This document shows, in pieces, positions 26,085 to 51,672 of a stretch of 64,000 nucleotides of DNA. A program made the position numbers and the translations under genes. The DNA is from Kitasatospora xanthocidica (GTDB lineage Bacteria; Actinomycetota; Actinomycetes; Streptomycetales; Streptomycetaceae), in assembly GCF_014656195.1 (NCBI RefSeq), contig NZ_BNBY01000003.1:62001-126000 (forward strand), written 5' to 3'. Position 1 is the first letter of the stretch, and every line of letters begins with the position of its first letter. The notes beneath the pieces are model-generated. The model made no database searches. It was not told the DNA's origin and saw only the letters and a program-made list of their open reading frames with translations.

Positions 26085-26981
26085 CTGGGTGAGGGTCCGG
26101 AACAGCAAGGTGTCGTCGCCGAGGGCCTCGCAGGCCGCGTGCGCCTCGGCCACCTTGCGGGCGCGGTCCGGGTCCGCGTCGTCGAACAGCAGGCCCAGCA
26201 TGGTGCCGCTGTGCGCGCACACCACGCCGAGCGCCCCGGTCCGCCCCGCGATGGCGAGCATCGCGTCCAGGTGCCGCTTGGGGGCGAACCGCTGGTTGAG
26301 CACCGCGCTGCGGGTGGTCACCCGGCCCACGGCGGAGAGGTCCCCGGCGCGTACGGCGGCGGCCAGGTCGGCCAGCAGTCCGGTGAACTCGGCGGTGTCG
26401 GCCGGCGAGTAGCGCTTGGGGCGCTTGTTGAAGGTGACGGTGTCCAGGTGGCCGCCCTCGTCCACCGCCACCACGGTGGCCGGCGCCAGTTCGCCGAGGG
26501 CCTCGCGCAGCCGTACCTCGCGGTGCTCGAAGACGACGACGCCCGGGTGCATCACCCCGTCGGTCGGCTCGATCGGGCGCAGCCAGTGCTCCACCGCCGT
26601 CGGGCCGGTGTCCAGGCCGAGCGCGCCGCCGACCGCGCGGGCGGTGGCGACCAGGTCGGCCGAGGAGCTGGCCAGGCCCTTGCCGATCAGCAGGTCGCTG
26701 TCCAGGATCAGGGTCCCGCCGCCACCGGGCTGGTGGGCCGTCAGCATGGCCTCGGCCAGCCGCAGGGACTTGGTCTTGTGGGCGGGGAAGACCCGCAGCG
26801 GGCCGACCGGGTCGAAGCGGAACCAGGCCCGGGAGCGGAGCGTGATCGGCAGGGTGACGAGGAAGTCGGTGCCGTCGGGCAGCCGCCCCTGGAGCAGTTC
26901 GCCGAAGGTGCCGGGGCCGTCGGCCCGGCCGCTGCGCAGGTCGGCGCCCGGGCGGCGGGTGATCAGGCTGGGGCCGGTCAC
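26073..26981 (-). CDS. GHMP kinase, PduX-like (L-threonine kinase)
   Basis: A 302-residue GHMP-family kinase. GPGTFGELLQG at about residue 20 and LIGKGLASSSADLVATAR at about residue 95 (the GLxSSxA ATP loop) match PduX-type L-threonine kinases, which make O-phospho-L-threonine; VVCAHSGTMLGLLFD is the C-terminal GHMP motif. GTG 26981 overlaps the stop of the ASL-like gene (GTGA). In this operon phosphothreonine would feed the PLP enzyme encoded next. Confidence 0.85.
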   Translation of the reverse strand: MTGPSLITRRPGADLRSGRADGPGTFGELLQGRLPDGTDFLVTLPITLRSRAWFRFDPVGPLRVFPAHKTKSLRLAEAMLTAHQPGGGGTLILDSDLLIGKGLASSSADLVATARAVGGALGLDTGPTAVEHWLRPIEPTDGVMHPGVVVFEHREVRLREALGELAPATVVAVDEGGHLDTVTFNKRPKRYSPADTAEFTGLLADLAAAVRAGDLSAVGRVTTRSAVLNQRFAPKRHLDAMLAIAGRTGALGVVCAHSGTMLGLLFDDADPDRARKVAEAHAACEALGDDTLLFRTLTQPSQ

Positions 26982-28513
26982 GGGGTGCCCGCTTGGGTGG
27001 GGCCCTCGGTGGACGCGTTGGTCGGGCCGTCGGTGGAGGCGTCGGCGAGCAGGGCGTCCACGCGGGCCGCGGCGGCGCTCGCCGTCTCGGCGCGCAGCCG
27101 CCACTGCCCGGCCACCTCCCGGTAGCCGCGGTCCTGCGCGGCGAGCATGGCCCGGACGGCGTCGGGGTGCGTCGACCCCGTGGACCGCTTGACCCGGACG
27201 GCCCGGTCCGCGTCGAGGGAGCCGGCCAGCAGTGCGCCGGGCTCGGGCACCCGGTGGCCGTGCTCCTCGGCGACCGCCGCGAGCAGCGGGCCGTCGGGGG
27301 TGGCCGCGGTCAGGCCCTTGGCGATGGCGGCCCGGACGTACGCGCCGGCGATCACCTGCGCCGTCCGCCACGGGACACCGGCCTCCAGGGTCAGCCGGTT
27401 CGCGAGGGTGAAGGCGCCGAGGAAGTCCCCCTCGCAGGCCTCGCGCATCCGGTCGGTCCGGAAGGTGGCGGTGGCGAGCGCGGTGTGGGCCAGCCGCAGG
27501 GCCGAGCGCAGCGCGGCGAACTGCTCCCGGAGGTGCCGACCGGCCTCCTTGGAGACCTCGACGCTGTTGGCGTACGGGGTGCCGTGCTGGGCGAAGGCGA
27601 GCTGGGCCGCGCAGCCGACGACGTGCGAGCAGCGGCCGCGGATCCGTTCCAGGACCGGGAAGTTGCGCTTCTGCGGCATCGCGGCCGAGATCCCGGCCAG
27701 GTCGTCGGGGAAGTCGACGAAGCCGAACCCGGCGCCGCTCCAGGTCATCAGGTCGGTGGTGAAGCGGCTGAGGAGGACGGCGAAGGTCGACAGCTCGGAC
27801 GCGACCCCGAGGGCCCAGGAGCGGGAGGCCACCGCCATCAGGGCGTGCGGCTGGGGCTGCCGGAAGCCCAGCAGTGCGGCCATCCGCTCGCGGTCCCAGG
27901 GCAGTTCCTGGCCGGCCATGCTGCCCGCGCCGAGCGGGGAGCGGTCGATCCCGTCATAGGTGGCCAGCAGGCGGCGGGCCGCGTCGAGGGTCTCCTCGGA
28001 GAGCGCCGAGAGGTAGAAGGCGGGGGTGACGGTCTGCGCGGCCTGGGCGTGGGTGTAGCCGGGCATCGGGCTGTCCGGCAGTTCGGCGGCGCGCGCCGCC
28101 ACGGTGCGTCCGAAGGCGATCAGGCCGTCGGCGAGGGCGCGGACGTTCTCCCGGCTGGAGAGCAGTTGGCCGCAGGCCTGGAAGTCGTTGCGGCTGCGGT
28201 CCACGTGCCAGGCGGCGAACGGTGTGGTCCCGCCGCGGGCGACGTGGCGTTCCATGGCGAAGAAGATGTCCGACATGTTGTCCCGCGGGTCCGCCCGGAT
28301 CAGCTCGGGGGTCAGCTCGTCGAGCCGCCCGGCGATCGCGGCCGTCCCCTCCTGGTCGACCAGGCCCATCCGGCGGTACTCCAGCAGCAGCACCTTCTCG
28401 ATGGACACGTAGTGCGGCAGCAGGGCTTCGGCCTCGTAGCCGAACTGCGGGGCCAGCACCTCCTCGTCCCAGACCTCGCTGGGCACGCCGTCGATCCGGC
28501 CGGTCACTGCCAT
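26978..28513 (-). CDS. Argininosuccinate lyase-like enzyme
   Basis: A 511-residue member of the aspartase/fumarase superfamily closest to argininosuccinate lyase. HVDRSRNDFQACGQ matches the GRSRND motif, MPGYTHAQAAQTV the second conserved region, and ISAAMPQKRNFPVLERIRG the signature loop that carries the catalytic Ser. The predicted role is to release fumarate from an aspartate adduct, leaving an amino group on the diaminobutyrate skeleton. ATG 28513 overlaps the stop of the C-T gene by 10 bases. The last 30 residues are Thr/Ala/Gly-rich. A primary arginine-pathway role is unlikely in this setting. Confidence 0.87.
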   Translation of the reverse strand: MAVTGRIDGVPSEVWDEEVLAPQFGYEAEALLPHYVSIEKVLLLEYRRMGLVDQEGTAAIAGRLDELTPELIRADPRDNMSDIFFAMERHVARGGTTPFAAWHVDRSRNDFQACGQLLSSRENVRALADGLIAFGRTVAARAAELPDSPMPGYTHAQAAQTVTPAFYLSALSEETLDAARRLLATYDGIDRSPLGAGSMAGQELPWDRERMAALLGFRQPQPHALMAVASRSWALGVASELSTFAVLLSRFTTDLMTWSGAGFGFVDFPDDLAGISAAMPQKRNFPVLERIRGRCSHVVGCAAQLAFAQHGTPYANSVEVSKEAGRHLREQFAALRSALRLAHTALATATFRTDRMREACEGDFLGAFTLANRLTLEAGVPWRTAQVIAGAYVRAAIAKGLTAATPDGPLLAAVAEEHGHRVPEPGALLAGSLDADRAVRVKRSTGSTHPDAVRAMLAAQDRGYREVAGQWRLRAETASAAAARVDALLADASTDGPTNASTEGPTQAGTP

Positions 28514-30093
28514 GTCTCTCCTTCGGGGTCGGTCCGGTCGTCCCGGCGCGTCGCGGTGTGCCGCTCCAGTTCGGCGGCGAGCCGGGCGACGGTGGGGTTC
28601 GAGAAGAAGGCGTCGACGGTGGTCTCGACGCGGTGGTCGGCGGACAGCCGGGCGAGCAGGCGCAGCGCCTGCAGCGAGTGGCCGCCGACGGCGAAGAAGT
28701 CGTCCTCGACGCCCACCCGGTCGACGCCGAGCACCTCGGCCCACGCGCGGGCCACCAGTTCCTCGGCGGCGGTGCGCGGCGGGACGTGGCCGGGCGGCGG
28801 CACCGGCTCGGCGCCGCCCTCGGGCCCGGGGCCGGCCGGGAGCCGGGACAGCGGTGTCGCCGGGTCGGCGAGGGCCGCCGTGAGCACCGCCGCGTAGTCG
28901 GCGAGCAGCCCCGCGGCGGTCTCCGGCCCGAACAGGGCGGTGTTGTACTCGACGCGGACGGCGCCGCCGGACACCTCCAGCAGCAGGTCGTCCTCGGCCG
29001 CGGTGGACGGGGGCCCGAAGCTCTCGGCCGCCGTGACGTTGAACGCCAGCTGGTAGAGCGGTGGCAGGCCGGGGCCGCGCCGCGGGGCGAGCTGCTCGAC
29101 CACGGTCTGGAACGGCAGCTCCTGGTGGTCGCGGGCCGCCCGCCACACCGCCCGGACGCGGTCGACCAGCGCGGCGTACGAGGGGTCGCCCGAGGCGTCC
29201 ACCCGGAGCACCACCATGTTCACGAAGGTGCCGACGAGGGGCAGCAGTTCGGGGCGGTCCCGGCCGGAGAGCGGCACCCCGAGGACGACGTCGTCCCGGC
29301 CGGAGCGCCGGTGGACCAGGGCCGCGTACCCGGCGAGCAGCAGCTCGAACGGCGTGACCCCGTACCGGTCGGCGGCCTGGGCGAGCGCGGGCGCCGTGCC
29401 CGCCGGGAGCTCGGTCCGCAGCTCCGCGCCGGCGAAGGACCGCCGGGCCGGGCGTGGCCGGTCCAGCGGCAGTCCGTGCGCGGGGGGCAGCCCGGCGAGC
29501 TGCTTCCGCCAGTAGCCGGCCAGCGCGGCTGTCCCGGCGCCGTCGAGCCGCTCGCGCTGGCGGCGCGCGTAGTCGCCGTAGGAGAGGGGGAGCCGGGGGA
29601 CGCTCGGCGGCCGGTCCTGCTCGAACGCCGCGCAGAACTCGGTGAGCTCCGCGTGCAGGTTGAACAGTGACGGGGCGTCGCAGACGGCGTGGTGGGCGAC
29701 GAAGAGCAGCCGCCAGCGCCCGGCGCCGAGCCGGACCAGGCCCGCGCGCCAGAGCGGTGCCCGGGAGAGGTCGAAGGCGGTGTGCTTCAGCCGGTCGGCG
29801 AGGGCCTCGCGCGCCGCCCGCCGCTCCTCCTCGGGGCGGCCGGACAGGTCGAGGACCTCCAGGTCGGGGTCGACGCCGCCTCGGACGACCGCGTGCAGCG
29901 CGCCGTCCACGACCCGGAACCCGGTGCGCAGCGCCTCGTGCCGTGCCACCACGGCGGCCAGGGCCGCCCGGATCTGCCCTTCGGAGACGTCCCCGTGCAG
30001 CGGCCACTGGTCGGTGACGTGGTAGAGCGCGGTGTCGGCGGCGAACCGGCTGGCCAGCCAGGCGCGTTCCTGCGCGAAGGAGGCGGCGGTCAT
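28504..30093 (-). CDS. NRPS protein: condensation-thiolation (C-T)
   Basis: A 529-residue didomain with no A domain. The C domain covers about residues 5-430; the active-site motif reads HHAVCDA (usual HHxxxDG, last Gly replaced by Ala). The T domain is at about residues 450-525 with FFAVGGHSLQALRLL carrying the phosphopantetheine Ser. The T domain must be loaded by an A domain on another protein, most simply one of the free A proteins in the same operon. The start at 30093 overlaps the oxygenase stop (ATGA). Confidence 0.9.
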   Translation of the reverse strand: MTAASFAQERAWLASRFAADTALYHVTDQWPLHGDVSEGQIRAALAAVVARHEALRTGFRVVDGALHAVVRGGVDPDLEVLDLSGRPEEERRAAREALADRLKHTAFDLSRAPLWRAGLVRLGAGRWRLLFVAHHAVCDAPSLFNLHAELTEFCAAFEQDRPPSVPRLPLSYGDYARRQRERLDGAGTAALAGYWRKQLAGLPPAHGLPLDRPRPARRSFAGAELRTELPAGTAPALAQAADRYGVTPFELLLAGYAALVHRRSGRDDVVLGVPLSGRDRPELLPLVGTFVNMVVLRVDASGDPSYAALVDRVRAVWRAARDHQELPFQTVVEQLAPRRGPGLPPLYQLAFNVTAAESFGPPSTAAEDDLLLEVSGGAVRVEYNTALFGPETAAGLLADYAAVLTAALADPATPLSRLPAGPGPEGGAEPVPPPGHVPPRTAAEELVARAWAEVLGVDRVGVEDDFFAVGGHSLQALRLLARLSADHRVETTVDAFFSNPTVARLAAELERHTATRRDDRTDPEGETWQ

Positions 30094-31082
30094 CCGGTCC
30101 CTCCGCCGGGCACGACGCGGTCGGGCAGGACGTGGTCGGACAGGACGTGGTCGGGGAGGCGGACCGGGTCGCCGAGGACGACGGCGACCTCCCGGGGGCC
30201 CTCGTACGGCTCCCGGCTGTGCGCCATCCGGATGTTGTCGACGACCAGGACGTCGCCGTCGCGCCAGGACTCGCCGAAGGCCGCCGCGTCGTAGGCCGCG
30301 TTGACGGCCTCGACGGTGCCGGCGTCGATCGGCGTGGTGTCGCCGTGGGCGGTGGTGAACGGCAGGCCGGTCGGCCCGTACTGGTCGAGCAGGTACTCGC
30401 GGATCACCGGGTCCATGGTCAGTTCGTTGAGGAAGGCGATCTGGTTGAACCAGCCGGGCACGCCGGTGCGGGGGTGGGCGACGACGGCGGCGCGGCGCTG
30501 CGCGGTGCGCAGTCCTCCGTCGAACCACTCCTGCCGGATGCCCTCGGCCGCGCAGTAGGCGTCGACCAGGGCGCGGTCCTCGGTGCCGAAGGCGTCGGTC
30601 CACGGCACGCCGACGTCCTGGTACGACCGCAGCAGCAGCCAGCCGTCCCGGCGGAACGGCTCGACCAGGCCGGCCGGGAGGGCGCGCAGCACCTGCTGGG
30701 AGTCGGCGAGCATCGTCCGGCCGCCGCGGTCCGGGGCGGTGAGGCAGCCGAACACCATCAGGCCGGGGACCTCGGCGGCGTAGCTCTGCTCGTGGTGCAT
30801 GCACATCGGGGCGTCCGCGGGCCAGTGCGAGGCCGAGTAGACCGTCTCGCCGTGCCGGTCGCGGGGTGCGAACCCCTCCCGTTCGGCCATCGGCTCGATC
30901 CCGAGCGCGGCGGTGACGGCCGCGAGGTCGGCGGGCGAGGCGACGCCCGAGCCGCGCAGCAGGACGGCCCCGGAGGCCTCGACCTCGGCGCGGACCTCCG
31001 CGCGGTGCTCGGCGGCCCAGCGCGGGCCGGGGGCGGCTTCCAGGATCCGCAGGGCGGGTGCGGTGCGGGTGGCGGGGGTCAT
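30090..31082 (-). CDS. TauD/SyrP-like Fe(II)/2-oxoglutarate oxygenase
   Basis: A 330-residue non-heme iron oxygenase. MHHEQSY (His96, Glu98) is the HxD/E metal motif and NIRMAHSREPYEG supplies the distal His and the Arg for 2-oxoglutarate. SyrP-type members hydroxylate the beta-carbon of amino acids, often while bound to a carrier protein. It sits between an A-T gene and a C-T gene with ATGA overlaps on both sides, so a residue loaded by that A-T protein is the likely substrate. The resulting hydroxyl could be the site for carbamoylation or acetylation. Confidence 0.87.
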   Translation of the reverse strand: MTPATRTAPALRILEAAPGPRWAAEHRAEVRAEVEASGAVLLRGSGVASPADLAAVTAALGIEPMAEREGFAPRDRHGETVYSASHWPADAPMCMHHEQSYAAEVPGLMVFGCLTAPDRGGRTMLADSQQVLRALPAGLVEPFRRDGWLLLRSYQDVGVPWTDAFGTEDRALVDAYCAAEGIRQEWFDGGLRTAQRRAAVVAHPRTGVPGWFNQIAFLNELTMDPVIREYLLDQYGPTGLPFTTAHGDTTPIDAGTVEAVNAAYDAAAFGESWRDGDVLVVDNIRMAHSREPYEGPREVAVVLGDPVRLPDHVLSDHVLPDRVVPGGGTG

Positions 31083-33253
31083 CGCCGGGCCTCCGCGGTC
31101 CGGCCGGCCGCCTTGCGGTCGAGGAGTCCGGCCACCTCGGCCACGGTCGGGGTGGTCTTCAGCTCGCCGACCGTCACCGCGCGGTCCAGGGCGATGGCCA
31201 ACCGGATCGCGGCCAGCGAGGTGCCGCCGAGCTCGACGAAGCGGGAGCCGCGGCCGACCTGGTCGAGCGGCACGTTGAGCAGTTCGGCCCAGAGCCGGGC
31301 GACCCGGCGCTCGGTGTCGGTCTCGGGGAGCGCCACCTCGCCGTCGGCGGCCGGCCGGCCGCCCTGCGCCTTGGCCTCGGCGGTCAGCGCCTTCTTGTCG
31401 ATCTTGCCGTTCGGGGAGAGCGGCAGCCGGTCGAGGCGGTGCAGTCGGCCCGGCACCATGTAGTGCGGCAGGACGGCGGCCAGGGCCCCGTCCACGGCCC
31501 CGGGCTCCGGGGCGGCGGTGCCGCTGTAGAAGCCGACCAGCTGCGGGTCCTCGGCCGAGCCGGCGATCACCACGGCGCCGTCCCGCACGCCGGGGACCTG
31601 GAGCAGCCGGTTCTCGATCTCGCCGATCTCGATCCGGAAGCCGCTCACCTTCACCTGCGAGTCCCGGCGGCCGAGGTACTCGAACTCGCCGGAGGGCAGC
31701 CGGCGGCCGAAGTCGCCGGAGTGGTAGAGCCGTTCGCCGGAGTGGTACGGGTCCGGCCGGTACGCGGCGTCGGTGCGGGCGGCGTCGTTGACGTACCCCC
31801 GGCCGACGCAGACCCCGGCGAAGACGATCTCCCCCGGCGCGCCGTCCGGGACCATCCGCAGCCGCTCGTCCACCACGTACACCCGGACGTTGCGGGTCGG
31901 CGGGCCCAGCGGGACGAACCGGCCGGCCGGCGGGCCGTGCAGCACGCCGTGGTTGGTGTCGTCCGAGACCTCGGTGGTGCCGTAGCAGTTGACCAGCGGG
32001 ATGCCGGGGAAGGCGGCGAACCAGCGGTGCACCAGCTCGGTCTTGAGCGCCTCGCCGGTCACCGCGAGGACGCGCACCGACGGCAGGCCGAGGCTGTCCC
32101 CCTGAAGCGTCTCCAGCACCAGGTCGAGGTAGGAGGGCACCAGCTGGGCCACCTGGACGCCCGCCCGGGTGACGGTCTCCACGAAGCGGCGGACGTCGGT
32201 GACGGTGTCCTGACCGACGATCTCCGTCCGGCCCCCCACCAGCAGCGCGCAGACCAGCTGCCAGAGCGAGATGTCGAAGCACTGCGGGGCGGTCTGGGCG
32301 ATGACGTCGCCCTCGCGGACGCCCAGGTCCTCGATCTTGGAGTAGAGGTGGTTGAGGAAGCCCGCGTGCTCGCACATCGCGCCCTTGGGCTCACCGGTCG
32401 AGCCCGAGGTGAAGTAGATGTACGCCAACTGGTCGGCGCGGACGGGCAGTCCGAGGTCCTGCTCGGCGTCGGAGCCCGGGCCGGCCGGCTCCTCGGTCAG
32501 CAGCGAGACGGTCACCTCCCGCCCCCGCACCGCCTCGTCGAGCTGGGCCAGCCCCGGGTCCGCCAGCACCCGGCGGCAGTCGCTGCGCTCCAGCACCACG
32601 GAGATCCGCTCGGCCGGGAAGGACGGGTCCAGCGGGAGGTAGCAGCCGCCCGCCTTGAAGATCGCGATCACCGCGGCCATCCACTCCAGCGAGCGCTCGG
32701 CCACCACCGCCACCACGTCCTCGTCGGCCAGCCCCCGCTCCCGCAGCGACCGGGCGATCCGGTTGGCGCGGCCGTTCAGCTCCGCGTACGTCCAGCTCCG
32801 CCCGCCCTGCACCGCGGCGACGGCGTCGGGGTGCCGGCGCACCCGCTCCTCGAACAGCTCGTGGAAGCGGCGGTCCGGCAGCGGCCGGACCGGGCCGGCC
32901 GAGGCCGCGAGGGCGGCCGCCAGCTCCTCCCCGGCGACCAGGCCGTGCGCGTCGTGCGCCTCGTCCGGGGCGGCGGCCATCCGCTCCAGCACCGCCCGGA
33001 CGTAGCCCTCGGCACGGTCGGCGCCGACGTGCTCCTGCTCGCCGGCCTCCTTCCCGACCCGCTCGGCCTCGGCCCGCCCCTGCGGGGTGGCCACCCGGGC
33101 GATCAGCTCGCGCCAGCTCGCACCCTCGTCGCCGAGCGCGTCGGAGCCGGTCAGCACCGCCGCCACCTTGAACGACGCGGCCAGCCGCACGGTGTCCGGG
33201 CCGACCCCGGCCTCCACCGCCAGGGCCGCGATCGCCGCTTCGGCGTTCGTCAT
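31079..33253 (-). CDS. NRPS protein: N-terminal extension-adenylation-thiolation (A-T)
   Basis: A 724-residue protein. The first 125 residues (ending LPDRRFHELFEERVRRH) form a helical region not part of a standard A domain; I do not recognise it. The A domain is at about residues 128-640: YFTSGSTGEPKG, CFDISLWQ, NCYGTTEVSDD, YHSGDFGRR, NGKIDKK. The specificity residues read by eye are D-I-W-Q-A-T-C-D-D; two Asp late in the pocket suit a basic substrate such as diaminobutyrate (inference). The T domain has VELGGTSLAAIRL. Both ends overlap neighbours by ATGA. Confidence 0.9.
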   Translation of the reverse strand: MTNAEAAIAALAVEAGVGPDTVRLAASFKVAAVLTGSDALGDEGASWRELIARVATPQGRAEAERVGKEAGEQEHVGADRAEGYVRAVLERMAAAPDEAHDAHGLVAGEELAAALAASAGPVRPLPDRRFHELFEERVRRHPDAVAAVQGGRSWTYAELNGRANRIARSLRERGLADEDVVAVVAERSLEWMAAVIAIFKAGGCYLPLDPSFPAERISVVLERSDCRRVLADPGLAQLDEAVRGREVTVSLLTEEPAGPGSDAEQDLGLPVRADQLAYIYFTSGSTGEPKGAMCEHAGFLNHLYSKIEDLGVREGDVIAQTAPQCFDISLWQLVCALLVGGRTEIVGQDTVTDVRRFVETVTRAGVQVAQLVPSYLDLVLETLQGDSLGLPSVRVLAVTGEALKTELVHRWFAAFPGIPLVNCYGTTEVSDDTNHGVLHGPPAGRFVPLGPPTRNVRVYVVDERLRMVPDGAPGEIVFAGVCVGRGYVNDAARTDAAYRPDPYHSGERLYHSGDFGRRLPSGEFEYLGRRDSQVKVSGFRIEIGEIENRLLQVPGVRDGAVVIAGSAEDPQLVGFYSGTAAPEPGAVDGALAAVLPHYMVPGRLHRLDRLPLSPNGKIDKKALTAEAKAQGGRPAADGEVALPETDTERRVARLWAELLNVPLDQVGRGSRFVELGGTSLAAIRLAIALDRAVTVGELKTTPTVAEVAGLLDRKAAGRTAEARR

Positions 33254-36144
33254 GAGTTCTCACCTTCCAGTTCGTTCCGGCGTGCCGGCAGGGGCCAGGG
33301 CAGCCGCGCGCGATCACGTTTGTTGGTGGCGGTGCGCGGCAGGTCGGCCAGCACCGCGATCAGGTCGGGGACCGCGGGGGCCGGCAGCCGGGCCGCGACC
33401 AGCCGCCGCAGCTCCTCCCCGGTGACCCCGGCGTCGGCCACCACGTAGCCCACCAGGCAGGGGTCGCCGGCGGCGGTGGTGCGCACGGCCGCCGCGGCCT
33501 CCCGCACCCCGGGCTGCTGCTCCAGCACCGCCTCGACCTCGTCCAGCTCGACCCGGTTCCCGCGGATCTTCACCTGGTTGCCGGTCCGGCCGGTGAACGC
33601 CAGGGTGCCGTCCGCCCGCCAGTAGCCGCGGTCGCCGGTGCGGTACAGGGTCCGGCCGGTCCGCCAGGGGTCGGGCAGGTACGCCGAGGCCGTCTCGACG
33701 GGCCGGCGGTGGTAGGAGCCGGCCAGGAAGCCGCTGCGCAGATGGATCTCGCCGGGCACCCCGGCCGGGCACGGCCGGCCGAGCGCGTCCAGGACCAGCG
33801 CCTCCCGGCCCGGGATCGCCCCGCCGATCGGCACCCCGGCCGGGAACGACCCGCCCGGGGGCAGCTCGTGGTGGGTGGCCAGGACGCACTCGGTGGGCCC
33901 GTACAGGTTGTGCAGCCCCGGCCGCACCGCCCGGTGCGCCCAGGCCTCGGCCAGGTCCACCGGGAACACCTCACCGGCGATCAGGACGTGCCGCAGGTCC
34001 GGCAGTTCGCCGCCCTGCGCGTCCAGCGCCTCGGTGAGCAGCCGGAAGAACGACGGCACGGTCTGGATCTGCCCGATCCGCTCCCGCCGCAGCCAGCGCA
34101 CCACCGAGACCGGATCGCGCCGGGCCGCGTCCGGCGGCAGGCAGAGCTCGGCCCCGGCGGTGAGCGCCGCGAAGATCTCGGTGTACGCGGCGTCGTAGGT
34201 GAGCGGCGCCCACTGGGCGACCCGGCTCCCGGGCCCGATGCCGAACCGCTCGCGCTGCCACTCGGCGAACTGCGCGAAGGCGGCCCGCGACAGCGCGATG
34301 CCCTTGGGTGTGCCGGTGCTCCCCGAGGTGTGCACGATGCACAGCGGGTGGTCGGCGACCGGCGGGGCCGGGAAAGTGTCCCGCTCCCCCGGTGGCTCGT
34401 CCCCTGGGGCGGGTTCCAGCCTCAGCACCGGCAGGCCCGCGAACCGGCCGTCCGGTCCGAGCAGCGCCGGGTGCGCCGCGGTGGCGGCCTCGTCCGCGAG
34501 CACGCAGACCGCGCCGGTGCCGGCCAGGATGTCGCGCAGCCGGGCGTCCGGGTCGGCGGGGTTCAGACAGCTGAAGGTCGCGCCGATGCGCATCGCGCCG
34601 AGGACCGCCGCGATCTGCCCGGGACCGCCGCTCAGCAGCAGCGCCACCACCTGCCCGGGGCCCACGCCGTGGCCGGCCAGGGCGTGGGCGGTCCGGCCGC
34701 TCCACCGGTCGAGCCCGCCGTAGGCGAGCGTGCCCTCCGCGGAGCGCACCGCGACCGCCCCGGGGGCGTCCTTCACCCGCGCCGCGAACTCCTCGTCCAG
34801 GAAGGCAAGGTAGTCGCGGTACGGCCGGGTGGTGGCGGGGGCGGGTGCCGGGTACGGCGCGGGGCGGCCGGAGAGGTCGAGTTCGGCCAGTGGCCGGTCG
34901 GGGGTGTCCAGCCCGAACTGCAGCGCCCGGACGAGGTGGTCGGCGAAGCCCTCGGCCGTCACCCGGCCCGGCAGCGCGCCGGTGAGGACGACGGTGAACT
35001 CCGCCGGCCCGGTCAGGGCCAGGGTCAGCCGGCCCTCCGGGTCGGGCGGGCAGTCGACGGTCAGCTCGGCCGCGACGCCCGGCAGGTCCAGGGCGGCGGC
35101 CGGGAGGTGCGGCCCGGCGAACTCCGCGCGGATCGGGAAGGACGCGGCCTCGGCACCCGCCTCCGGGGCCGTCCGCACCAGGGCGGCGAGGCGAGCCGGC
35201 GTCAGGGCGTCGGAGAGGTCCAGCCGGATCACCCGCCGCGCCGGGCCGTCGGGCGGGGTGGCCGCCTCGTCGGGCGCGGTTGGCGTTCCGGCGGGCACGG
35301 GCGCCGTCCCGGCGGGCACGGGCGCCGTCCCGTCCGGCGTGGTCAGCGTTTCGTCGGGCACGGTCAGCACGGCCTCCGACGTCCCGGCGTACCGGCCGAG
35401 CACCGCCGCGAAGGCGGCGAGCAGCCGGTCCGCCGCGTCGCCGGGCTCCTCGGACTTCCCGGGCTCGCCCGGCAGTGCGCGGGACGCCCGCTCGCCGGGG
35501 AACCAGGCGCCCGGCAGGGGTCCGGTCGCGGGCGCCGGGGCGTCCGCGACCCGCGCGCGGTAGGCGGCGCCGAGGTCCCGGGTCAGCCCTGCGACCGACC
35601 AGGCGTCGGCCCGCTCCCCGTCCACCGTGAGCAGGAGTTCGTACGAGCCGGCGCCGAGCCCGGCGAGGCAGGCCCGCAGCCGGGGGCGGCCGGCGGCGCC
35701 GAGCGGCCGGGCGGCCTCGTCGGCCGCCAGCTCGGCGAGGACCCGCCGCTGCTGCTCCCCGGCGGACCGGGAGAGGTCGATGACCCTCAGCCGGACCCGG
35801 CCCGGGCGCTCCCCCGACCCGGCGAGCCCGGGACGCGCGGCCACCAGGGCCTCGACGGCCGCCGACAGCGCGGTGACGTCCGGCTCCCCGGTCAGCCGGG
35901 CCCGGAGCACGGCGTTCGCGGGCGGGGCCGCGGCGGAGGTGTTCGCGGGCGGCGCCGTCGCGGAAGTGTTCGCGGGCGGCGCTGCGGCAGAAGCGTTCGG
36001 GGGCGGCGCTGCGGCGGAACCGCTCACGGGAGCGCTCACGGGTGAGGCCGCCGCGGGAGCGTGCACGGGCGGCGCCTCGGCAGAAGCGCTCGCGGGAGCG
36101 TGCACGGGCGAGGCCGTAGCGGAAGTGTTCGCGGGAGCGTTCAC
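33250..36144 (-). CDS. NRPS protein: degenerate condensation-adenylation (C*-A), no T domain
   Basis: A 964-residue protein starting at GTG 36144 (GTGA overlap). Residues 1-75 are an Ala/Pro/Ser-rich linker containing 9-residue repeats. Residues about 75-430 look like a broken C domain: the catalytic site reads [14 protein letters not shown] where HHxxxDG is expected. The A domain follows: [38 protein letters not shown], and it ends with TNKRDR. The pocket reads D-A-T-Q-L-A-L-L-A (hydrophobic, substrate unknown). No T domain follows, so it must load a T domain elsewhere. Confidence 0.88.
35915..36022 (-). repeat. Four tandem 27-bp repeats inside an NRPS gene
   Basis: Units start at 35915, 35942, 35969 and 35996, beginning TTCGCGGGCGG(G/C)GCC on the plus strand. 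Translated on the minus strand each gives nine residues of the form N(T/A)SA(A/T)APPA. They make a flexible, in-frame, length-variable linker at the N-terminus of the C*-A protein. Confidence 0.85.
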
Positions 36145-37877
36145 GATCCGCTCCGGGCCAGGCGGTCCGTCACGGCCGAGGCGAGCCCGGCGACGGTCGG
36201 GTCCAGGAGGAACGCCCGCAGCGGGAGGTCGACCTGGTACTCGTAGCGGACCCGGTCCATCAGCCGGGCGATCGCCAGGGAGTCGCCGCCGAGCAGGGTG
36301 AAGTCGTCGTCGCGGTTGACGCCCGCCAGGCCGAGGATCTCGGTCCAGATCGCGGCGATCCGGGTCTCCTCGGGCCCCTGCGGCGGCTGGGTGGCCTCCG
36401 CCGCCCGTTGCGGCGCGACCTTCGGCAGGGAGCGGCGCTCCACCTTGCCGTTGAGCGTCCGGGGGATCGCCGCCATCCGGACGAACACCGAGGGCACCAG
36501 GCCGGGTGCGAGCCGCCGCGCGGCGTGGGCGCGCAGCTCGGCGTCGTCGACGTCCGGGGCCACCACGTAGGCGACCAGGGCGGTCGACCCGTCCTCGGTG
36601 ACCGCCGCCGAGCAGACGTCCGCCACCCCGGGGTGGCCGCGCAGGGCGTTCTCGACCTCGCCGAGGTCGATCCGCACGCCGTGGACCTTGACCTGCTGGT
36701 CGCGACGGCCGTACAGCTCCAGCGCCCCGTCCGGGCGGAACCTGCCGAGGTCGCCGGTGCGGTAGCTGCCGGCCGTGCCGCGCCACTCCTCCTCGCCGAG
36801 GTAGCCGAGCAGCGGGAACGGGACCTCCAGCTCCACCTCGCCGAGCGCGTCCGGCGCGTCCCCGGGCCCGGTCAGCACCCGGACCGCCACGCCCGGCAGC
36901 GGCCGGCCGACCGGCACCAGCCGGGCCTGGGCGTCCTCGGCCGTCGTCCGGTGGTACAGCTTGGTCATGGTCGTCTCGGACGGCCCGTACAGGTTGACCA
37001 GTTCCTTGCCGTCGCCGAACAGGCCGCGCCACCACGCGACGTCCGCGGGGTGCAGCTGCTCGCCGGCGAGCAGCACGGCGCGCAGGGCGGGGAAGGAGGC
37101 GGGGGTCAGCGCGGCGGAGCGCAGGGTGCGGAAGAGGGTCGGCACGCAGTGCAGGACCTCGACCTCGTTCTCGGTGAGCCAGCGCGCCAGGCCCTCGCCG
37201 ACCGGCGCCCCGGCGGCCGGGTTCACGCAGACGGTGCCGCCCGCGCACAGCGGGGTGAAGGCGTCGCGCAGGAAGGCGTCGAAGCCCGGGGAGGTCAGCT
37301 GGGACACCTTGGTGCCCTCGCCGATCCCGAACTCGGCGATCTCCCAGTCGACGAAGTGGTGGACGGCCCGGAGGCTGCCGCGGATGCCCTTCGGGCGCCC
37401 GGTCGTGCCCGAGGTGAAGTAGACGTAGCCGCGGTCCTCCGGGGCGGCCCGCTGCCAGGCCTCGGCGGACCACGCGCCGGACTCCACCGTCTCCGGGCTC
37501 ACCAGCCGGGCGCCGTCAGGCAGTTCGCGCCCCGCGAGCGCCTCCCGGCCCGCCGCGTCGGCGACGACCGCGCCCGGGCGGAGCGCGTCGAGCACCCCGT
37601 CCAGGACGGCGGCGGGCAGCCGGGGGTCGACCGGTGCGAAGGTACGGCCGGCGGCCATGCAGCCGAGGACGGCCGCGATCACCTCCACCGGGTCGGCGCA
37701 GGAGAGCAGGACCGGGTCCGCCGGCCGCCCGATCTCCTCGAAGGCTGCCTGGTAGCCGGCCACCCGGCCCGCGAGCTCCCGGTAACTCACCTCTCCGGCA
37801 CCGGACTTCACGGCGCACCGGGAGCCGTCGCGGGCCAGGCTGTCCGCCCACCGCCCCAGAACCGTCGGCGTTGTCAT
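36141..37877 (-). CDS. NRPS protein: adenylation-thiolation (A-T)
   Basis: A 578-residue free-standing loading didomain. A domain motifs: [47 protein letters not shown]. The pocket read by eye is D-A-R-H-L-A-L-M-T, which I cannot assign to a known amino acid. The T domain at about residues 500-570 has [15 protein letters not shown]. There is no C domain, so it is either a starter or a protein that passes its aminoacyl group to another line. ATG 37877 overlaps the racemase stop (ATGA). Confidence 0.9.
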
Positions 37878-38659
37878 ATGGATCCATCCCTCATTCGCTG
37901 TGCGATGACGGTCATCGGGTCGATGCTGGGCAGGTGCCGGGTCAGCCCGCGGGCCTCGATCGCCCTGGTCACCAGGTGCAGTTCGGTGCAGCCGGCGACG
38001 AACGCGGTGGCCCGGTACTTGGGCAGCAGCGCGCGGACGAAGTCGATCGTCGCGAGCCGGTCGCCGTTGCGCTTGAGCCGGTAGACGTGGCGGTGCAGCC
38101 GCTCCTGGTCCTCCTCGTCGGGCAGGACCAGGCGGTGCGCGAACTCGGGCCAGCGCTCGTGGTCGGTGAAGACTCCGGCGAGGACGCTGCCCCGGGTGCA
38201 CAGCACCAGGTGGCGGCCGGGGCGTTCGGCGAGCTGCTCGAAGACCAGGTCCACGAGGGAGACGCAGCGGGAGCGCAGCCGCTCCGGCAGCAGCCGGATC
38301 GCGGGGTGCGCGGTGATGCAGGCCACCACGACGACGTCGGCGCCGGCGGTGAGCAGCCGGTCGACCGAGTCCTCCAGTGCCGCGCGCACGAGGTCGACGG
38401 TGCCGGACTGGATGGCCGTGGTCCGGTCGGCCACGGCCGGGTCGGACCAGAGCAGGATCCGCGCGGCGAGCTGCTCGCGCTCGGGCGGTTCGAGGCCGTA
38501 CACCGTGTTGAGCAGTTCGGTGGAGGCCAGCGGGCCCATGCCGCCGATCACGCCGATCAGCGGTCGGCGGGCGCCGGGCTCGCCGGGGCGCGCGGGGGCG
38601 TCGGCCGCCCGCGGCCGTACGGCGCCCGGCGGGGGCGTGGTGACGCGTTCTCGGGTCAT
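37874..38659 (-). CDS. Aspartate/glutamate racemase family protein
   Basis: A 261-residue cofactor-independent racemase. [13 protein letters not shown] begins the fold. The two catalytic cysteines are in [12 protein letters not shown] (Ile where Asn is usual) and [10 protein letters not shown]. It should interconvert L- and D-Asp/Glu or a related acidic residue in the cytoplasm. No epimerisation domain was found in the NRPS genes, so this enzyme may supply a D-amino acid directly to an A domain. A leader of about 30 residues (Pro/Ala/Arg-rich) precedes the fold; a later start is possible. Confidence 0.85.
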
Positions 38660-40548
38660 CCCAGGCACGGCAGGCCGAACTCCTCCAGGAAGATCGCGAA
38701 GGTCGCGATGACGAGCAGGTAGTCCGTGTCCAGGTGCGGGTGCACGGTGCGGGCGCCGGAGGTCTGCCGGCGGATCAGCTCGGCGACGACGTCCGGGTCG
38801 AAGTAGCCCTGCCGGCGTACGGTCGCGGGTGAGAGCAGGTCGTTGAACCACTCGTCGCCGGCCAGCAGCAGTTCGGTGCTGGTCTGGCTGCGGAAGCCGA
38901 ACTTGCGGCGGTTCAGCACCTCGGGCGGGACGAGGCCCTCGGCCGCGCGGCGCAGCACCGCCTTCTCCTGGCCGCCGGCCGTCATCAGGGACGGCGGGAC
39001 CTCGGTCGCGTGCCGGACGACGTCCCTGGCCAGGAACGGGAAGCGCATCTCGACGGAGCTGGCCATGGCCATCCGGTCGCCGTGGTCGCCGAGCAGGTGG
39101 TCGGCGAGGCGCAGGTGGAAGTCGAGGTAGGAGCGCTGGTGCAGGGGGTGGCGCCCGATCAGGCGCTCCGGGTCGACCAGGCGCTGGGAGGTGACCGAGA
39201 AGCCGTCGAACTCCTCGGCGAGCGGGCCGCTGTAGAGCTGGCGGCGCAGGTCGTGGGCGGGGAACTGGTCGTTCTCGTAGCGCAGGTCCAGGCCCCACAT
39301 CCGGTGGGCGGCCTCGCGTTCGAGCTGCTCCTCCAGGAGGTCGCCGGACCCGCGGCCCGGGCCGCCGGCGTCGAGCAGGTAGCCGGGGTAGCCGCCGAAC
39401 AGCTCGTCGGCGCCCTCGCCGCTGAGCACCGCGACCGTGCCGGTGGCGCGGACCTTGCGGGCCAGCAGCATCGAGCAGACGTTGTAGGACTCCTTCACCG
39501 GGGTCTCGGCGTGCCGGACCATGCCGCTGAGCAGGCCTGCGGTGTCCGCGGCGTCGACCGGGACCTCGTGGTGCCGGGTGCCGATCTTGCCGGCCACCAG
39601 CCGCTGGTAGCGGGCTTCGTCGATGCTGCTGCCGGGGAAGGTCACCGCGTAGCTGGGCCACTGGTGGTCGGGGCGTTCGGCGGCCAGGAGGGCGCCGATC
39701 AGGCTGGAGTCCAGGCCGCCGCTGAGGTACGTCCCGACCGGGACGTCCGCGACGGAGCGGGAGCGGACGGCGGCTTCGAGCAGGTCCCTGGTCCGGTCGG
39801 CGTGGCCGTCGAACACCCGCGGGTCGGCGAGCGCGGCGGCGTCGCGGCGGCGGGCCTCGTCGTCCCAGAGCGGGTAGTCGAGGTCCCAGTAGCGCTCGGT
39901 GCGGTGGCCCGAGCGGTCCGCGACGAGCCGCTCGCCAGGGCGCAGTGACCGGATGCCCTCGAACATCGTCCGGGGGCTCACCAGCCCGGGCAGCGAGAGC
40001 ACCTGGTCGAGCCCGCGCAGGTCGACCCGGCGGGCCACCAGCGGGTGCCGGAGAATGCTCTTGATCTCCGAGGCGAAGACGATGGTCCCGGCCACCACGG
40101 TGTAGAACAGCGGCAGAACTCCGCAATGGTCGCGGGCGAGCACCAGACGGTCCTCGCGCCGGTCGTAGAGGGCGAAGGCGAACTGCCCGTCGAGGTGGTC
40201 GGTGAGTTCGGTGCCGTATTCCTCGTAGAGGTGGACCAGGACCTCCGTGTCCGATCCGCCCCGGAATCGGTGGCCTTTTCTCCGGAGTTCTTCCCGGAGG
40301 CTCCGGTGGTTGAATATCTCGCCGTTGCACACCGAGACCACGGAGGAATCCGGGGTGCTGTGGGGCTGTCCGCCGCCGGCCAGGTCGACCAGTGAGAGGC
40401 GGCGGAAACCGGCGGTGAACGCGCCGGTCTCACAGGTGGCGTGCGCGTCTGGCCCCCGGTGCACCAGCGCGTCGGTCATGGCCGTCAGGACGTCGGGGTC
40501 CAGGCCGGCCGGGTCGTCGAGTCCGTAAACCCCGGCTATTCCGCACAT
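38656..40548 (-). CDS. Asparagine synthase (glutamine-hydrolysing)-like amidotransferase
   Basis: A 630-residue AsnB-type protein. Cys2 of MCGIAGVYG is the glutaminase nucleophile, with HRGPDA, NGEIFNH and [14 protein letters not shown] in the class II amidotransferase domain. The synthetase domain has the PP-motif [28 protein letters not shown] and KFGFRSQTS. It can make Asn, or amidate a carboxyl of a precursor or product in the cluster. It is the first gene of the leftward operon. The start ATG 40548 puts Cys at position 2 as required. Confidence 0.9.
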
Positions 40549-40803
40549 CGAGCTCAGGCTCCTATCACCCGGTCGCTCACACGAATCCTGACGGAATCCG
40601 CTGCTCCTTCGATATCTCCGCCGGCCACATTAGGAGCGGCGCCGCGCACGGGTCAACGATTTGCCACTCGTCCTTTCGGCCGGAATCCCGGCCCTACCGA
40701 AGTACAGGTCGGTTCCGGACCTACGGGCGGCGACGTGCGGGGATGTCCCGGCCTAGCGTGAAGGCCGAACGATTTCGGGCGGCAACGAGGTGAGGTTGGA
40801 GAC
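40549..40803. promoter_or_regulatory. Divergent control region of the two biosynthetic operons
   Basis: 255 bases between the first genes of both operons. It is less GC-rich than its surroundings. AGGTC (40706-40710) and GACCT (40718-40722) form a small inverted repeat with a 7-base spacer, a possible regulator site. TAGCGT (40754-40759) resembles a -10 element for the rightward operon without a good -35. No open frame is supported. Confidence 0.5.
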
Positions 40804-42666
40804 ATGCGCGTCCTCGGTTACAGCGGGCTCAACGGTGGACTGGAATTCAAGCGGGAGTCTTTCCCCGGGCTCGATCCCCGGCTGCACAGGTTCGCCCAGG
40901 GCTACGACTCGGCGGCGGCCCTGGTGATCGACGGCGAGGTGGTGGCCGCCGCCGCGGAGGAGCGGTTCACCGGGGAGAAGACCACCGGGTCGTTCCCCGT
41001 CAACGCGATCGAGTTCTGCCTGGCGCAGGCCGGTCTGGGTCCGGACGACATCGACGTCCTGGCGCACGGTTTCGCCTACGGGGAGCCGGCCGGCAGCTTC
41101 GGCAGCACCTACTCCTCGACCCGGTTCCGCGAGGTGTACTCGACCGGCTCGCAGCTCGCGCTGGCCGAGAAGTTCCTGCCCGGCCGGCCCTGGGCGGACC
41201 GCTTCCGGCCTGTCCCGCACCACCTGGCCCACGCCGCCAGCACCTTCTACCCCAGCGGGTTCGAGGACTCGCTGATCGTGGTGAGCGACGGGATGGGCGA
41301 GTCGGAGAGCCTGACCGTCGCGGTCGGCCGGGGCGAGTCCATCGAGGTGCTGCAGACCGTCCCGGCGATGCACTCGGTCGGGATCCTCTACAGCCTGGTC
41401 ACCCACCACCTGGGCTTCGTCCCGTTCATGGACGAGTACAAGGTGATGGGCCTCGCGCCCTACGGCGACCCCCAGCGCTACTACGACCGCTTCGCCGCCA
41501 TGGTGCGGCTGCGCGAGGACGGCACGTACACCGTCCCCGTACTGGCCCGGGACCGCACGTCCTTCGAGCACGAGACCCACGAGGGCGTGCTGCGCGAGCT
41601 GGCCGCCGTGCTCGGCCCCGCCCGGCTGCCGGGGGAGCCGTCGACCCAGGACCACGCCGACATCGCCGCGGCCCTGCAGGCGATCACCGAGCAGTCGATG
41701 CTGCACGTCCTGCGGGCGGCCCGCGAGCGCACCGGCCTGAACCGGCTCTGCCTGGCCGGCGGGGTCGCGCTCAACTGCACGCTCAACGGCCTGGTCTCGC
41801 GCAGCCGCCTGTTCGACGACATCTTCGTCCAGCCGGCCTCCAGCGACGACGGCACCGCGATCGGCGCCGCGCTCGCGGCCGACGCCGCCGCCTCCTCCCG
41901 GGCCGGCCGGATGTCCATGCCGTACTGGGGGCCCGGGTTCTCGGACCACGAGCTGTCGGCGGCGGCCGGCGAGCCGGAGGGCTGCACCGTCGAGGAGTTC
42001 GCCACCGACGCCGAGCTCGCCGAGCGCGTCTCGGAGCTGCTGGCCGAGGGCAACATCACCGCGTGGGTCCAGGGCCGGATGGAGTTCGGCCCCCGCGCGC
42101 TCGGCAACCGCAGCATCATCGCCGACCCGCGGACCGAGGCCATGCGCGACCGGCTGAACGAGGTGGTCAAGGAGCGCGAGAGCTTCCGGCCGTTCGCGCC
42201 GGTGGTCCGGGTCCAGGACGCCGGCGACTACTTCGAGATCGCCCCCGGCACCGAATCCCGGTACGCCCACATGCTGTTCGTGACGCAGACCCGCGCCGAG
42301 CAGCGCGACAACCTCGGCGCGGTGACCCACGTCGACGGCAGCGCCCGGGTCCAGGTGCTCCACCAGGAGAGCAACCCGCGGTTCTTCGAACTGATCAGCG
42401 CGTTCGGCCGCCGCACCGGCACCCCGGTGGTGCTGAACACCTCCTTCAACCTGCGCGGCCAGCCGATCATCGCGACCCCGGAGGAGGCCCTGCGCACCTT
42501 CCTGCGCTCGAAGCTGGACGCCCTCGTCCTCGGCCGCACCGTCATCGTCAAGCACGTCAAGGGCGCCCCGGCCGTCCCGGTCGCAACGGTCGCCGAGGAC
42601 GCCCAGGTCGCGACGAACGGCAAGGACGCGAAGGACGGCAAGGAGTCGATCGCCGATGTCGGCTAG
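40804..42666 (+). CDS. Carbamoyltransferase, NodU/CmcH/TobZ family
   Basis: A 620-residue O-carbamoyltransferase, which makes carbamoyl-AMP from carbamoyl phosphate and ATP and transfers it to a hydroxyl. The Kae1-like part has PHHLAHAAS (metal-binding His), VSDGMGES, EYKVMGLAPYG and LAGGVALNC. The C-terminal YrdC-like part has GRMEFGPRALGNRSI, ESFRPFAPVV and LNTSFNLRGQPI. The substrate is probably a hydroxylated residue of the peptide, made by the oxygenase or P450. GGAG precedes ATG 40804. The tail is Lys/Asp-rich and overlaps the next gene by 11 bases. Confidence 0.9.
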   Translation: MRVLGYSGLNGGLEFKRESFPGLDPRLHRFAQGYDSAAALVIDGEVVAAAAEERFTGEKTTGSFPVNAIEFCLAQAGLGPDDIDVLAHGFAYGEPAGSFGSTYSSTRFREVYSTGSQLALAEKFLPGRPWADRFRPVPHHLAHAASTFYPSGFEDSLIVVSDGMGESESLTVAVGRGESIEVLQTVPAMHSVGILYSLVTHHLGFVPFMDEYKVMGLAPYGDPQRYYDRFAAMVRLREDGTYTVPVLARDRTSFEHETHEGVLRELAAVLGPARLPGEPSTQDHADIAAALQAITEQSMLHVLRAARERTGLNRLCLAGGVALNCTLNGLVSRSRLFDDIFVQPASSDDGTAIGAALAADAAASSRAGRMSMPYWGPGFSDHELSAAAGEPEGCTVEEFATDAELAERVSELLAEGNITAWVQGRMEFGPRALGNRSIIADPRTEAMRDRLNEVVKERESFRPFAPVVRVQDAGDYFEIAPGTESRYAHMLFVTQTRAEQRDNLGAVTHVDGSARVQVLHQESNPRFFELISAFGRRTGTPVVLNTSFNLRGQPIIATPEEALRTFLRSKLDALVLGRTVIVKHVKGAPAVPVATVAEDAQVATNGKDAKDGKESIADVG

Positions 42667-45375
42667 CCTCTTCCAGCCCCGGCAGCCCGCCGCCCACGCG
42701 ACCCTGCCGCCCGACCGGCCGCGCCCGCCGGTGACCCAGTTCCGGCGCGCGACGGTCAGCCTCGACAGCGCCGCCCTCGCCGAGGGCGTCACGGAGGTCG
42801 CGGACCGGTACGGGATCGAGCCGCAGACGGCGGCGGTCGCCGCGGTCGCCGCCGCCCTGGCCGCCCGCCACCACCGCGGCCGCACCGCGCTCGCGGTCGG
42901 CACGGTCCTCGGACCGGTCCGACTCCTGGACGTCGAGGTCGAGTTGGGCGGCCGGTCCGCGGCGACGGTGACCCTCGGCCGGCTGGACGCCGCGTTCGAG
43001 ACCGACCTGGAGACCGACCTCGGAGCCGGGCCGGAGTCCGCCGCCCGCTCCGGTGTCGCGGTGCTGTTCGGGCGCCCGGCCGAGCAGTGGCGGGGCATCG
43101 GACCCCAGCTCGCCGACCGGGACCTGGTGCTCAGCCTCGACCCGGACCGCAAGGAGGCCGGCTGCGAGTTCGACCGCGACCTCTACGACCCCGCCACCGT
43201 GACGGCCTTCTGCGAGTCCGTCCGGCAGGTGCTGGTCGCGCTGCTGGACGCGCCGGAGCTGCCCGTCCTCGACATCGAGGACGTCGAGGACGCCGAGGAC
43301 ATCGAGCAGGACCCGGCCCAGGCCGCCCCGCTGGCGCCCGGCACCGCCGAACTGACCGCCGGCGAGGGAGTCCTGGCGGGCATCTGGGCCGAGGTGCTGG
43401 ACGTCTCCCCCGCCGAGATCGACACCGACTCCGACTTCTTCGCCCTGGGCGGGCACTCCCTGCTCGCCGCCCGGGTCGCCATGCGGGCGGGCACCGTCTT
43501 CGGCGTCGAGATCACCGTCGAGGACCTCTTCCACCGCCCCACGCTGTCCGGGCTCGCCGAGTGGATCGAGCGGGCCGCGCCCGCCACGGCCCGGCCGATC
43601 CCGGCCGCCCCGGCCGGCGGCGCCCAGCCGCTCAGCTCCGTACAGACCGGGATCTGGCTCGCCGAACAGCTCAACCCGGGCGCGGCCCAGTACAACTTCC
43701 CGCTGTCCTGGCGGCTGCGCGGCACGGTGGACCCGCAGGCGCTGCGGCGGGCCCTGGACGAGCTGGTGCGGCGTCACGAGGCGCTGCGGCTGCGGATCAC
43801 CGAGTCGGAGGCCGGCCCGGTCCAGACCGTCGCCCCGGTCGCGGCGGCGCCCTTCGAGACCGTCGAGCTGCCCGGGCTCGACGAGGCCGGCCTCGCCGAC
43901 CTGGTCGAGCAGACCGTCAACGCGCCCTTCGACCTCGCCGAGAGCGCGCTGCGCGCGGTGCTGGTGCGCCTGGGCGCCGACGACTGGGCCTTCGTCCTGG
44001 TCGTCCACCACATCGTCTGCGACCAGTGGTCGCTGGCCCACCTGGTCGACGAGCTCGGCGCGCTGTACGCCGGCGGGGAGGCCGCGCCCGACGACGGCCC
44101 CCGGGACGGCTCTCCCGCCGGCTACCTGGACTACGCCGCCTGGCACCGGGACGTGCTGGCCGAGCGGCTGCCCGCGCTGCGGGACCACTGGCGGGAGAGC
44201 GTCGTCAACGCCCCCGAGGTGGACCTGACAGCCCTGCACCGCGCGGCCCCCGGCCCCGGCCTGCGCGGCGGCTGCCACCGCTTCGAGATCCCCGCCGGGC
44301 TGCTCGGCGAGGTCGAGGCCCTCGGCCGGAGCACCGGCACGACCCCGTTCATGGTGCTCTACGCCGGGTTCCTCGGGCTGCTCCACCGCTACTCGGGGCA
44401 GCACGACCTCACCGTCGGCACCTCCGTCGCCGGCCGCAACCACCCGCAGCTCGAAGCCTCGGTCGGCTCCTTCGTCAACCTGGTGCAGCTGCGCACCGGG
44501 CTGGCCGAGGGCCTGCCGTTCCGCGAGCTGCTGGACCGCGCCCGGACCACCGTCATCGACGCCTACACCCACCAGGACTACCCGCTGGAGACCGCGCTGC
44601 GGGAGCGGCGGATCCACGGCGCCCAGGGCTCGCCGCTGACCTCGGTCATCTTCGAGCTGCTGAACGTCGACCCGGTGCGGCTCTCGCTCCCGGGCGCCGC
44701 GGCCGAGGAGGTGCCGGTCCGGGTCCGCTCGGCGAAGTTCGGGCTGATGGTGACGCTGGAGACCACCACCTCCGGGACGATCGGCAACCTCGAGTACCAG
44801 GCCGACCGTTACGACGCCGCGCGGATCGCCCGGTTCGTCGAGCACTACCTGTCGCTCCTCACGGCCGTGGTCCGGGACCCGGAGCTGCGGGCCGACAGGT
44901 GGCTGCCCGCCGGGGAGCCGGCCGACGCCGGGATCACGCCCGGCCCGGCCGCGGCGGACCCGGCCTCGGTGGACCCCGCCTCGGTGGATCCGGCGGAGAC
45001 CGGCCGCCCGGAGCCGGAGGCCGACGAAGCGGCCCCGGCGTCCAGCCGGCGCGCCGCCCTGGAGACCGTCCTGGCCGACCTCTGGGCCGAGGAGCTCGGC
45101 GTCGACAGCATCGGCGCCGACCAGGACTTCTTCGCCCTCGGCGGCTACTCGCTGACCGCGACCCGGATCGTGGCGCGGCTGCGGCGCGAGCTGTCCGTCA
45201 CGGTGCCGCTGCGCGTCCTGCTCGTCGACGGGACGCTCGCCGCGCTGGCGACGTACATCGAGGAGCACGAGCCCGACCTTCCGGGCCTGCACAGGACCAT
45301 CAGGGTCATCCGGCTGGCCCGGGCGGACGAGCACCGGCAGCGGCAGACCGCCGATCAGGAGAGGAGTGGAGCGTC

Positions 45376-45379
<4 letters not shown>
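42656..45379 (+). CDS. NRPS protein without A domain: partial C-T-C-T
   Basis: A 907-residue protein. Residues about 28-205 match only the C-terminal half of a condensation domain (ending FDRDLYDPATVTAFC); the half with HHxxxDG is missing. T1 has [14 protein letters not shown] near residue 260. A complete C domain covers about 320-760, with VVHHIVCDQWSL (Gly of DG replaced by Gln). T2 has FFALGGYSLTATRI near residue 824. Neither T domain has a cognate A domain in the protein, so both must be loaded in trans. Between the last C and T2 is an Asp/Ala/Pro repeat region (PASVDPASVDPAE). Confidence 0.9.

Positions 45380-51672
<6,293 letters not shown>

Follow-up and report, generated by a model that had tools for sequence, protein, structure and literature searches.

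A nonribosomal peptide synthetase cluster of Kitasatospora xanthocidica with dissociated adenylation and carrier domains, probably loaded in trans

The 64,000-nucleotide stretch analysed here (the window; positions 62001-126000 of contig NZ_BNBY01000003.1, from the 9.27-Mb genome of Kitasatospora xanthocidica) carries a nonribosomal peptide synthetase (NRPS) cluster divided over two divergent operons, in which some adenylation (A) domains and thiolation (T, carrier) domains stand on different proteins. We consider it likely that this cluster makes a peptide, probably a heptapeptide ending in Phe, whose first three residues would enter through dissociated parts, with three A domains that stand apart from the main line serving T domains that lack an A domain in their own protein. 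Such loading in trans is, to us, the best reading of the split layout.

Domain inventory and conservation of the cluster

Pfam scans and the translations gave 7 A and 9 T domains across the NRPS proteins of both operons, and three T domains without A in their own protein, in agreement with the count of an earlier note on this DNA. The left operon, on the minus strand, holds the four proteins that the note had listed: two stand-alone A-T proteins, called ATa (36141-37877) and ATc (31079-33253, with an N-terminal extension of about 110 amino acids) below; a C*-A protein without T (33250-36144), which joins an aberrant condensation (C) domain, C* (35910-34825), to an intact A domain (34797-33280); and a C-T protein without A (28504-30093), with C at 30093-28819 (HHAVCD) and T at 28782-28549 (GGHS). 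Aligned to the Phe module with its GrsA-type code DAWTIAAVCK, their A domains read DARHLALMTK (ATa), DATQLALLxK (C*-A) and DIWQATCDDK (ATc). The right operon, on the plus strand, had been described as opening with an A-less protein. This pC-T-C-T protein (42656-45379) does lack an A domain and comprises a partial C domain, pC (42656-43315, C-terminal lobe only), a first carrier T1 (43361-43579), a full C domain (43619-44920, HHIVCDQWS) and a second carrier T2 (45023-45271), but its gene is the second of the operon, preceded by an O-carbamoyltransferase gene of the NodU/CmcH family (40804-42666).

One A-less T domain is thus carried by C-T and two by pC-T-C-T, while the C*-A protein has the only A domain without T. 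The A domains that do not belong to the main line, in ATa, C*-A and ATc, are as numerous as the A-less T domains, three of each. The HHxxxD motif is present in six C domains and absent from C*.

Could A domains have been overlooked, a possibility that the earlier note had itself raised? A tblastn search at domain level, covering the window with 20 kb on either side, found no extra A, T or C domain. The C-T protein (529 amino acids: C about 425, T about 78) and the pC-T-C-T protein (907 amino acids: partial C about 220, then T, C of about 430, and T) are filled by their C and T domains and are too short to conceal an A domain, so that hidden A domains can be ruled out. Adjacent genes share a few bases (GTGA at 36144; ATGA at 33253, 30093 and 45376), which leaves no place for a missing T domain between them.

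Scanning species-representative genomes with the pC-T-C-T protein gave a single close relative, Streptomyces sp. NRRL S-350 (NZ_JOHO01000002.1), whose cluster matches the present one gene for gene, with 78-95% identity for nearly all genes. The domain layout is identical, and the two species differ by no stop or frameshift. This rules out an assembly error or a frameshift as the source of the fragmentation; the pattern is thus real and maintained by selection. The GGxS serine is retained in 9 of 9 T domains, and the A-less ones keep it in both species. As far as sequence can tell, the earlier note's other counter-case, isolated T domains that are never loaded, finds no support: their serine is kept, and their genes are conserved and translationally coupled.

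Ratios of nonsynonymous to synonymous substitution rates (dN/dS), computed against NRRL S-350 and given with their intervals, differ along the cluster. The A domain of C*-A has a value of 0.27 (0.18-0.41) and C* one of 0.46 (0.31-0.68); the half-C of pC-T-C-T reaches 0.84 (0.52-1.45). Purifying constraint acts on the left-operon A domains, whose codes are unchanged. For single carriers the values are imprecise: T1 scores 0.76 (0.30-2.35), an interval too wide to call it dead, and the T domain of ATc is the most conserved T domain, at 0.08.

Relatives and descent of the dissociated parts

Relatives of ATa, with 56-62% identity, occur in five further Streptomycetaceae genomes, and the present genome holds another one; at these six loci gene order is always asparagine-synthase-like enzyme, racemase, A-T. 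The same cassette opens the left operon of the present cluster: an asparagine-synthase-like amidotransferase (38656-40548) with an intact N-terminal Cys2 glutaminase heads the operon and an Asp/Glu-type amino acid racemase (37874-38659) comes second, before ATa. The ten pocket residues of ATa are unchanged across the close copies compared. In the relatives the A-T protein is a plain loading module that feeds the C domain of the next protein. At all six loci this next protein has a complete C-A-T module, whose A domain shares about 60% identity with that of C*-A; the T domain that C*-A lacks follows in 6 of 6 cases.

Several observations connect C*-A to these modules. Its ten-residue code is identical in seven further loci. 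Its A domain forms a single clade with the A domains of C-A(DATQ)-T modules (support 100/100), and in a maximum-likelihood tree C* groups with the intact C domain of that module from five related clusters (support 98/92), a placement that depends on a long branch. In alignments the A domain matches end to end with its core motifs present; C* has no C1 motif, has lost the HH pair (in NRRL S-350 as well) and misses large inner segments. An AlphaFold2 model of C*-A was not used (mean pLDDT 47, six sequences in the input). The simplest account is that C*-A derives from an intact C-A-T module that would have lost its T domain and the use of its C domain and kept its A domain, presumably because the latter now loads a T domain on another protein.

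The cassette itself, with code DARH(L/A)(A/S)LMTK, is present in at least 10 other loci besides 36141-40548 of the window; the second copy in the same genome lies at G000:C13:80001-100000 (L056). The six close ATa relatives belong to hybrid clusters of NRPS and polyketide synthase (L051:105-11859, L055:1515-7085), apparently a single cluster family, with a Gly-type A domain, ketosynthase-acyltransferase-ketoreductase modules, an interrupted A domain, and a cyclization-like (Cy-like) domain with a Cys-type A domain. At one joined locus (L165, L147 and L096 of genome G327), asparagine-synthase-like and racemase-like genes flank an NRPS with an A-less C-T module.

ATc belongs to a larger family. 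Among 395 sampled Streptomycetaceae genomes (one per species, partly a random draw) 115 further sequences match it at E <= 2.6e-163, spread over about a quarter of the genomes. All 10 loci inspected have an adjoining gene for a TauD/SyrP-like Fe(II)/2-oxoglutarate oxygenase, mostly a gene for an SbnA-like pyridoxal phosphate (PLP) enzyme, and often an MbtH gene. In the present cluster this oxygenase (30090-31082, hereafter TauD) lies between the ATc and C-T genes, and downstream of C-T come an argininosuccinate-lyase-family enzyme (26978-28507), a GHMP-family kinase (26073-26981), likely a threonine kinase, and an SbnA-like PLP enzyme fused to an ATP-grasp ligase (23726-25993), all on the minus strand. 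Four Streptomyces loci (G262, G220, G961 and G838) show A-T, TauD, A-less C-T, lyase and kinase in identical order, with A-T and TauD fused into one protein in each of the four; the PLP/ATP-grasp gene follows directly in three of them and at a distance of about 9 kb in G220. Conservation of the C-T carrier extends to six loci.

The PLP enzyme, the lyase-family enzyme and the kinase share one operon, the content of a sub-cluster forming a diamino acid, probably 2,3-diaminobutyrate as in uridyl-peptide and amphomycin-type clusters. These constant neighbours, together with two acidic residues in the pocket, suggest that the substrate of ATc is most likely a 2,3-diaminobutyrate/diaminopropionate-type residue.

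What do the main-line synthetases look like beside ATc relatives? Nearly every ATc relative with readable NRPS genes accompanies an A-less or broken-A module. Modules in which the A domain is cut to a remnant (C-remnant-T) are found in G262 and G961, and twice each in G256 and G330; C-T modules without any remnant are found in G143 and G327. In G220 the in-line module is C-remnant-C, the T domain being lost too (L100:10249-10497, minus strand). G359 has a visibly broken A domain, and the stretches read from G257 and G229 contain no judgeable module. The remnant is about 85 residues long and corresponds to the A6-A7 region of core motifs, with invariant residues in common; Pfam detects in it the end of AMP-binding. 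Such modules lie at L097:2235-2804 (minus), L126:12156-12704 (plus), L153:538-1101 and 5680-6243 (plus), L154:16880-17443 (minus) and L155:2016-2579 (minus), all in clusters that also have a stand-alone A-T/TauD pair. In a structure model of the G262 remnant with its T domain, which is indicative only, the remnant strands have a pLDDT of about 85 (pTM 0.42). One may speculate, although we find this rather doubtful, that ATc proteins are widespread Streptomyces A-T(-TauD) loaders acting in trans, each for one or two modules whose A domain has been cut to the conserved remnant, kept for docking the loader; the present cluster would then be a late stage, with the remnant gone and a second, independent module deprived of its T domain and its C function.

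A proposed assembly line and its alternatives

Domain make-up, conservation, descent and intact motifs are read from the sequence itself; the loading partners, residue order and substrates proposed below are inferences. Six active C domains would form six bonds and therefore join seven residues, equal to the seven A domains. Residue 1 would be loaded by ATa on its own T domain, as in its relatives, and supplied with the help of the racemase and the asparagine-synthase-like enzyme. C*-A and ATc would provide residues 2 and 3, in an order that we leave unfixed, to the A-less C-T protein and the C-T2 half of pC-T-C-T. C*-A, with an A domain only, would have to load a T domain on another protein. 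TauD would oxidise the diamino-type residue on the ATc carrier, and this residue would then reach the A-less C-T in trans, perhaps also the C-T2 half. T1 may be a further loading site or idle. Residues 4 to 7 would be added by the four complete modules of the right operon, in a C-A-T-C-A-T protein (45376-51672; codes DFWNVGMVHK and DVASVAAVYK) and a C-A-T-C-A-T-TE protein (51954-59189; DFWSVGAVLK and DAWTIAAVCK), with an MbtH-like protein encoded in between (51723-51917). By its code, the first A domain of each protein is probably Thr-like, and the last probably selects Phe. The terminal thioesterase (TE) would release the product. The earlier note's central idea, that free A domains load T domains of other proteins, gains support from the retention of the A domain in C*-A and from the neighbours of the ATc family.

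Several points weigh against this reading. Only C*-A, the A-less C-T and the A-less C-T2 half would strictly need loading in trans; ATa and ATc have T domains of their own and could feed a C domain directly. For a heptapeptide, nine T domains are two too many, and T1, with its dN/dS of 0.76, may be idle. The T-domain tree is poorly resolved and pairs no carriers with loaders. The partner module of G220 has itself no T domain, so exact roles may differ among loci.

Does the A domain of ATc ever meet a foreign carrier? It may load its own T domain only; once TauD has acted, a transferase or the C domain of C-T would pass the aminoacyl group on to the A-less carriers. We regard this as possible, if somewhat doubtful. 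The strong conservation of the ATc T domain and the A-T/TauD fusion in four relatives make oxidation on this T domain likely, and syringomycin offers a precedent with SyrC as transferase (PMC8949500). However, no SyrC-like cysteine aminoacyltransferase was found in the cluster, whose only thioesterases have serine motifs, GHSMG and GWSLG; the first of these belongs to the lone type II thioesterase (22927-23718, plus strand), which is not a cysteine-type aminoacyl shuttle. Besides, C*-A without its own T domain would be left unexplained.

Alternatively, the C domains of C-T and pC-T-C-T could take aminoacyl groups directly from the T domains of the A-T proteins, some A-less T domains being idle relics. 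ATa relatives do act as plain loading modules for the C domain of the next protein, and T1 and its neighbouring half-C are weakly constrained, yet we think this unlikely, given the serine kept by all A-less T domains in both species, the C-T carrier conserved in six loci, and C*-A, which would still require a foreign T domain. That C*-A and the other fragments are decaying debris, in a cluster that is silent or makes a shorter peptide from its intact modules only, is very improbable: C* and the half-C are clearly broken, but the left-operon A domains are constrained with unchanged codes, the gene junctions are tightly coupled, and neither stop nor frameshift separates the two species.

The second C domain of the 45376-51672 protein (48523-49815) has a first motif like that of DCL domains, although the module before it has no epimerisation domain. 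A D-residue may be provided through the racemase, or the call of the C type may be wrong. The right operon ends with a hexapeptide-repeat O-acetyltransferase (59182-59940), a cytochrome P450 (59937-61157) and a gene for an exporter of the major facilitator superfamily. The acetyltransferase is a relative of Vat-like streptogramin acetyltransferases, scoring below the family cut-off (191 bits versus 300), and would serve in tailoring or self-protection.

Relation to known systems and significance

The class of mechanism proposed here is already known from syringomycin, ramoplanin, albicidin and capreomycin. CmnA-A1 was shown by intact mass to load CmnI-T in trans (PMC12400406); SyrB1 supplies SyrE via SyrC in syringomycin, and alb04 and the A-T proteins of ramoplanin and enduracidin are in-trans suppliers of modules whose A domain is absent or broken (PMC8949500). 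PRISM takes A-T together with C-T as a mark of trans-adenylation (PMC4787774), a combination present here in the A-T didomains ATa and ATc and in the A-less C-T units, namely the C-T protein and the C-T2 half of pC-T-C-T.

The present cluster resembles each of these systems in part. With capreomycin and viomycin it shares a diamino acid, an MbtH protein and an actinomycete host; there, however, the A domain of a full module serves two T domains, whereas here three separate A proteins are involved, one of them T-less, and TauD is interposed. Gene content and module count also differ from the tuberactinomycin set, with its five modules (CmnA/I/F/G) and its capreomycidine pathway. As with SyrB1, SyrB2, SyrC and SyrE of syringomycin, a stand-alone A-T protein (ATc, fused to the enzyme in four relatives) adjoins an Fe/2-oxoglutarate enzyme that probably acts on its carrier, and an A-less C-T is part of the line. 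The enzyme is a halogenase in syringomycin and a TauD/SyrP-type oxygenase here, no SyrC-like transferase was found, and the A-less C-T is a protein of its own. In ramoplanin and enduracidin, an A-T protein with an N-terminal extension likewise complements a module without working A in a multimodular line, but the extension has about 300 residues there against about 110 here and the chemistry of the residue differs; moreover, the partner modules retain an A remnant of about 85 residues in some clusters with ATc relatives. In albicidin, alb04 is a stand-alone A-T protein that complements a broken in-line A domain and also processes the residue; that in-line domain is inactive but present, whereas it is absent or a remnant in ATc-type loci.

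What is new is the merging of two independent trans sub-clusters into one line, an A protein that lacks both a T domain and a working C domain, the gradation of decay seen across the relatives, and how widely the A-T-TauD family is distributed. In the open-access literature we found no paper on the codes DARHLALMTK, DATQLALL or DIWQATCDD or on the product, which does not imply their absence elsewhere.

Product prediction from NRPS genes assumes co-linearity, and three residues would be missed or misplaced here. The related clusters constitute a natural series, from the intact module through the A remnant, the loss of A, and the loss of both A and T, to the broken C domain, which allows direct tests of how NRPS modules become split. 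Finally, the family of TauD-coupled loaders, found in about a quarter of the Streptomycetaceae genomes sampled, is a possible part for placing a modified diamino acid in other assembly lines.
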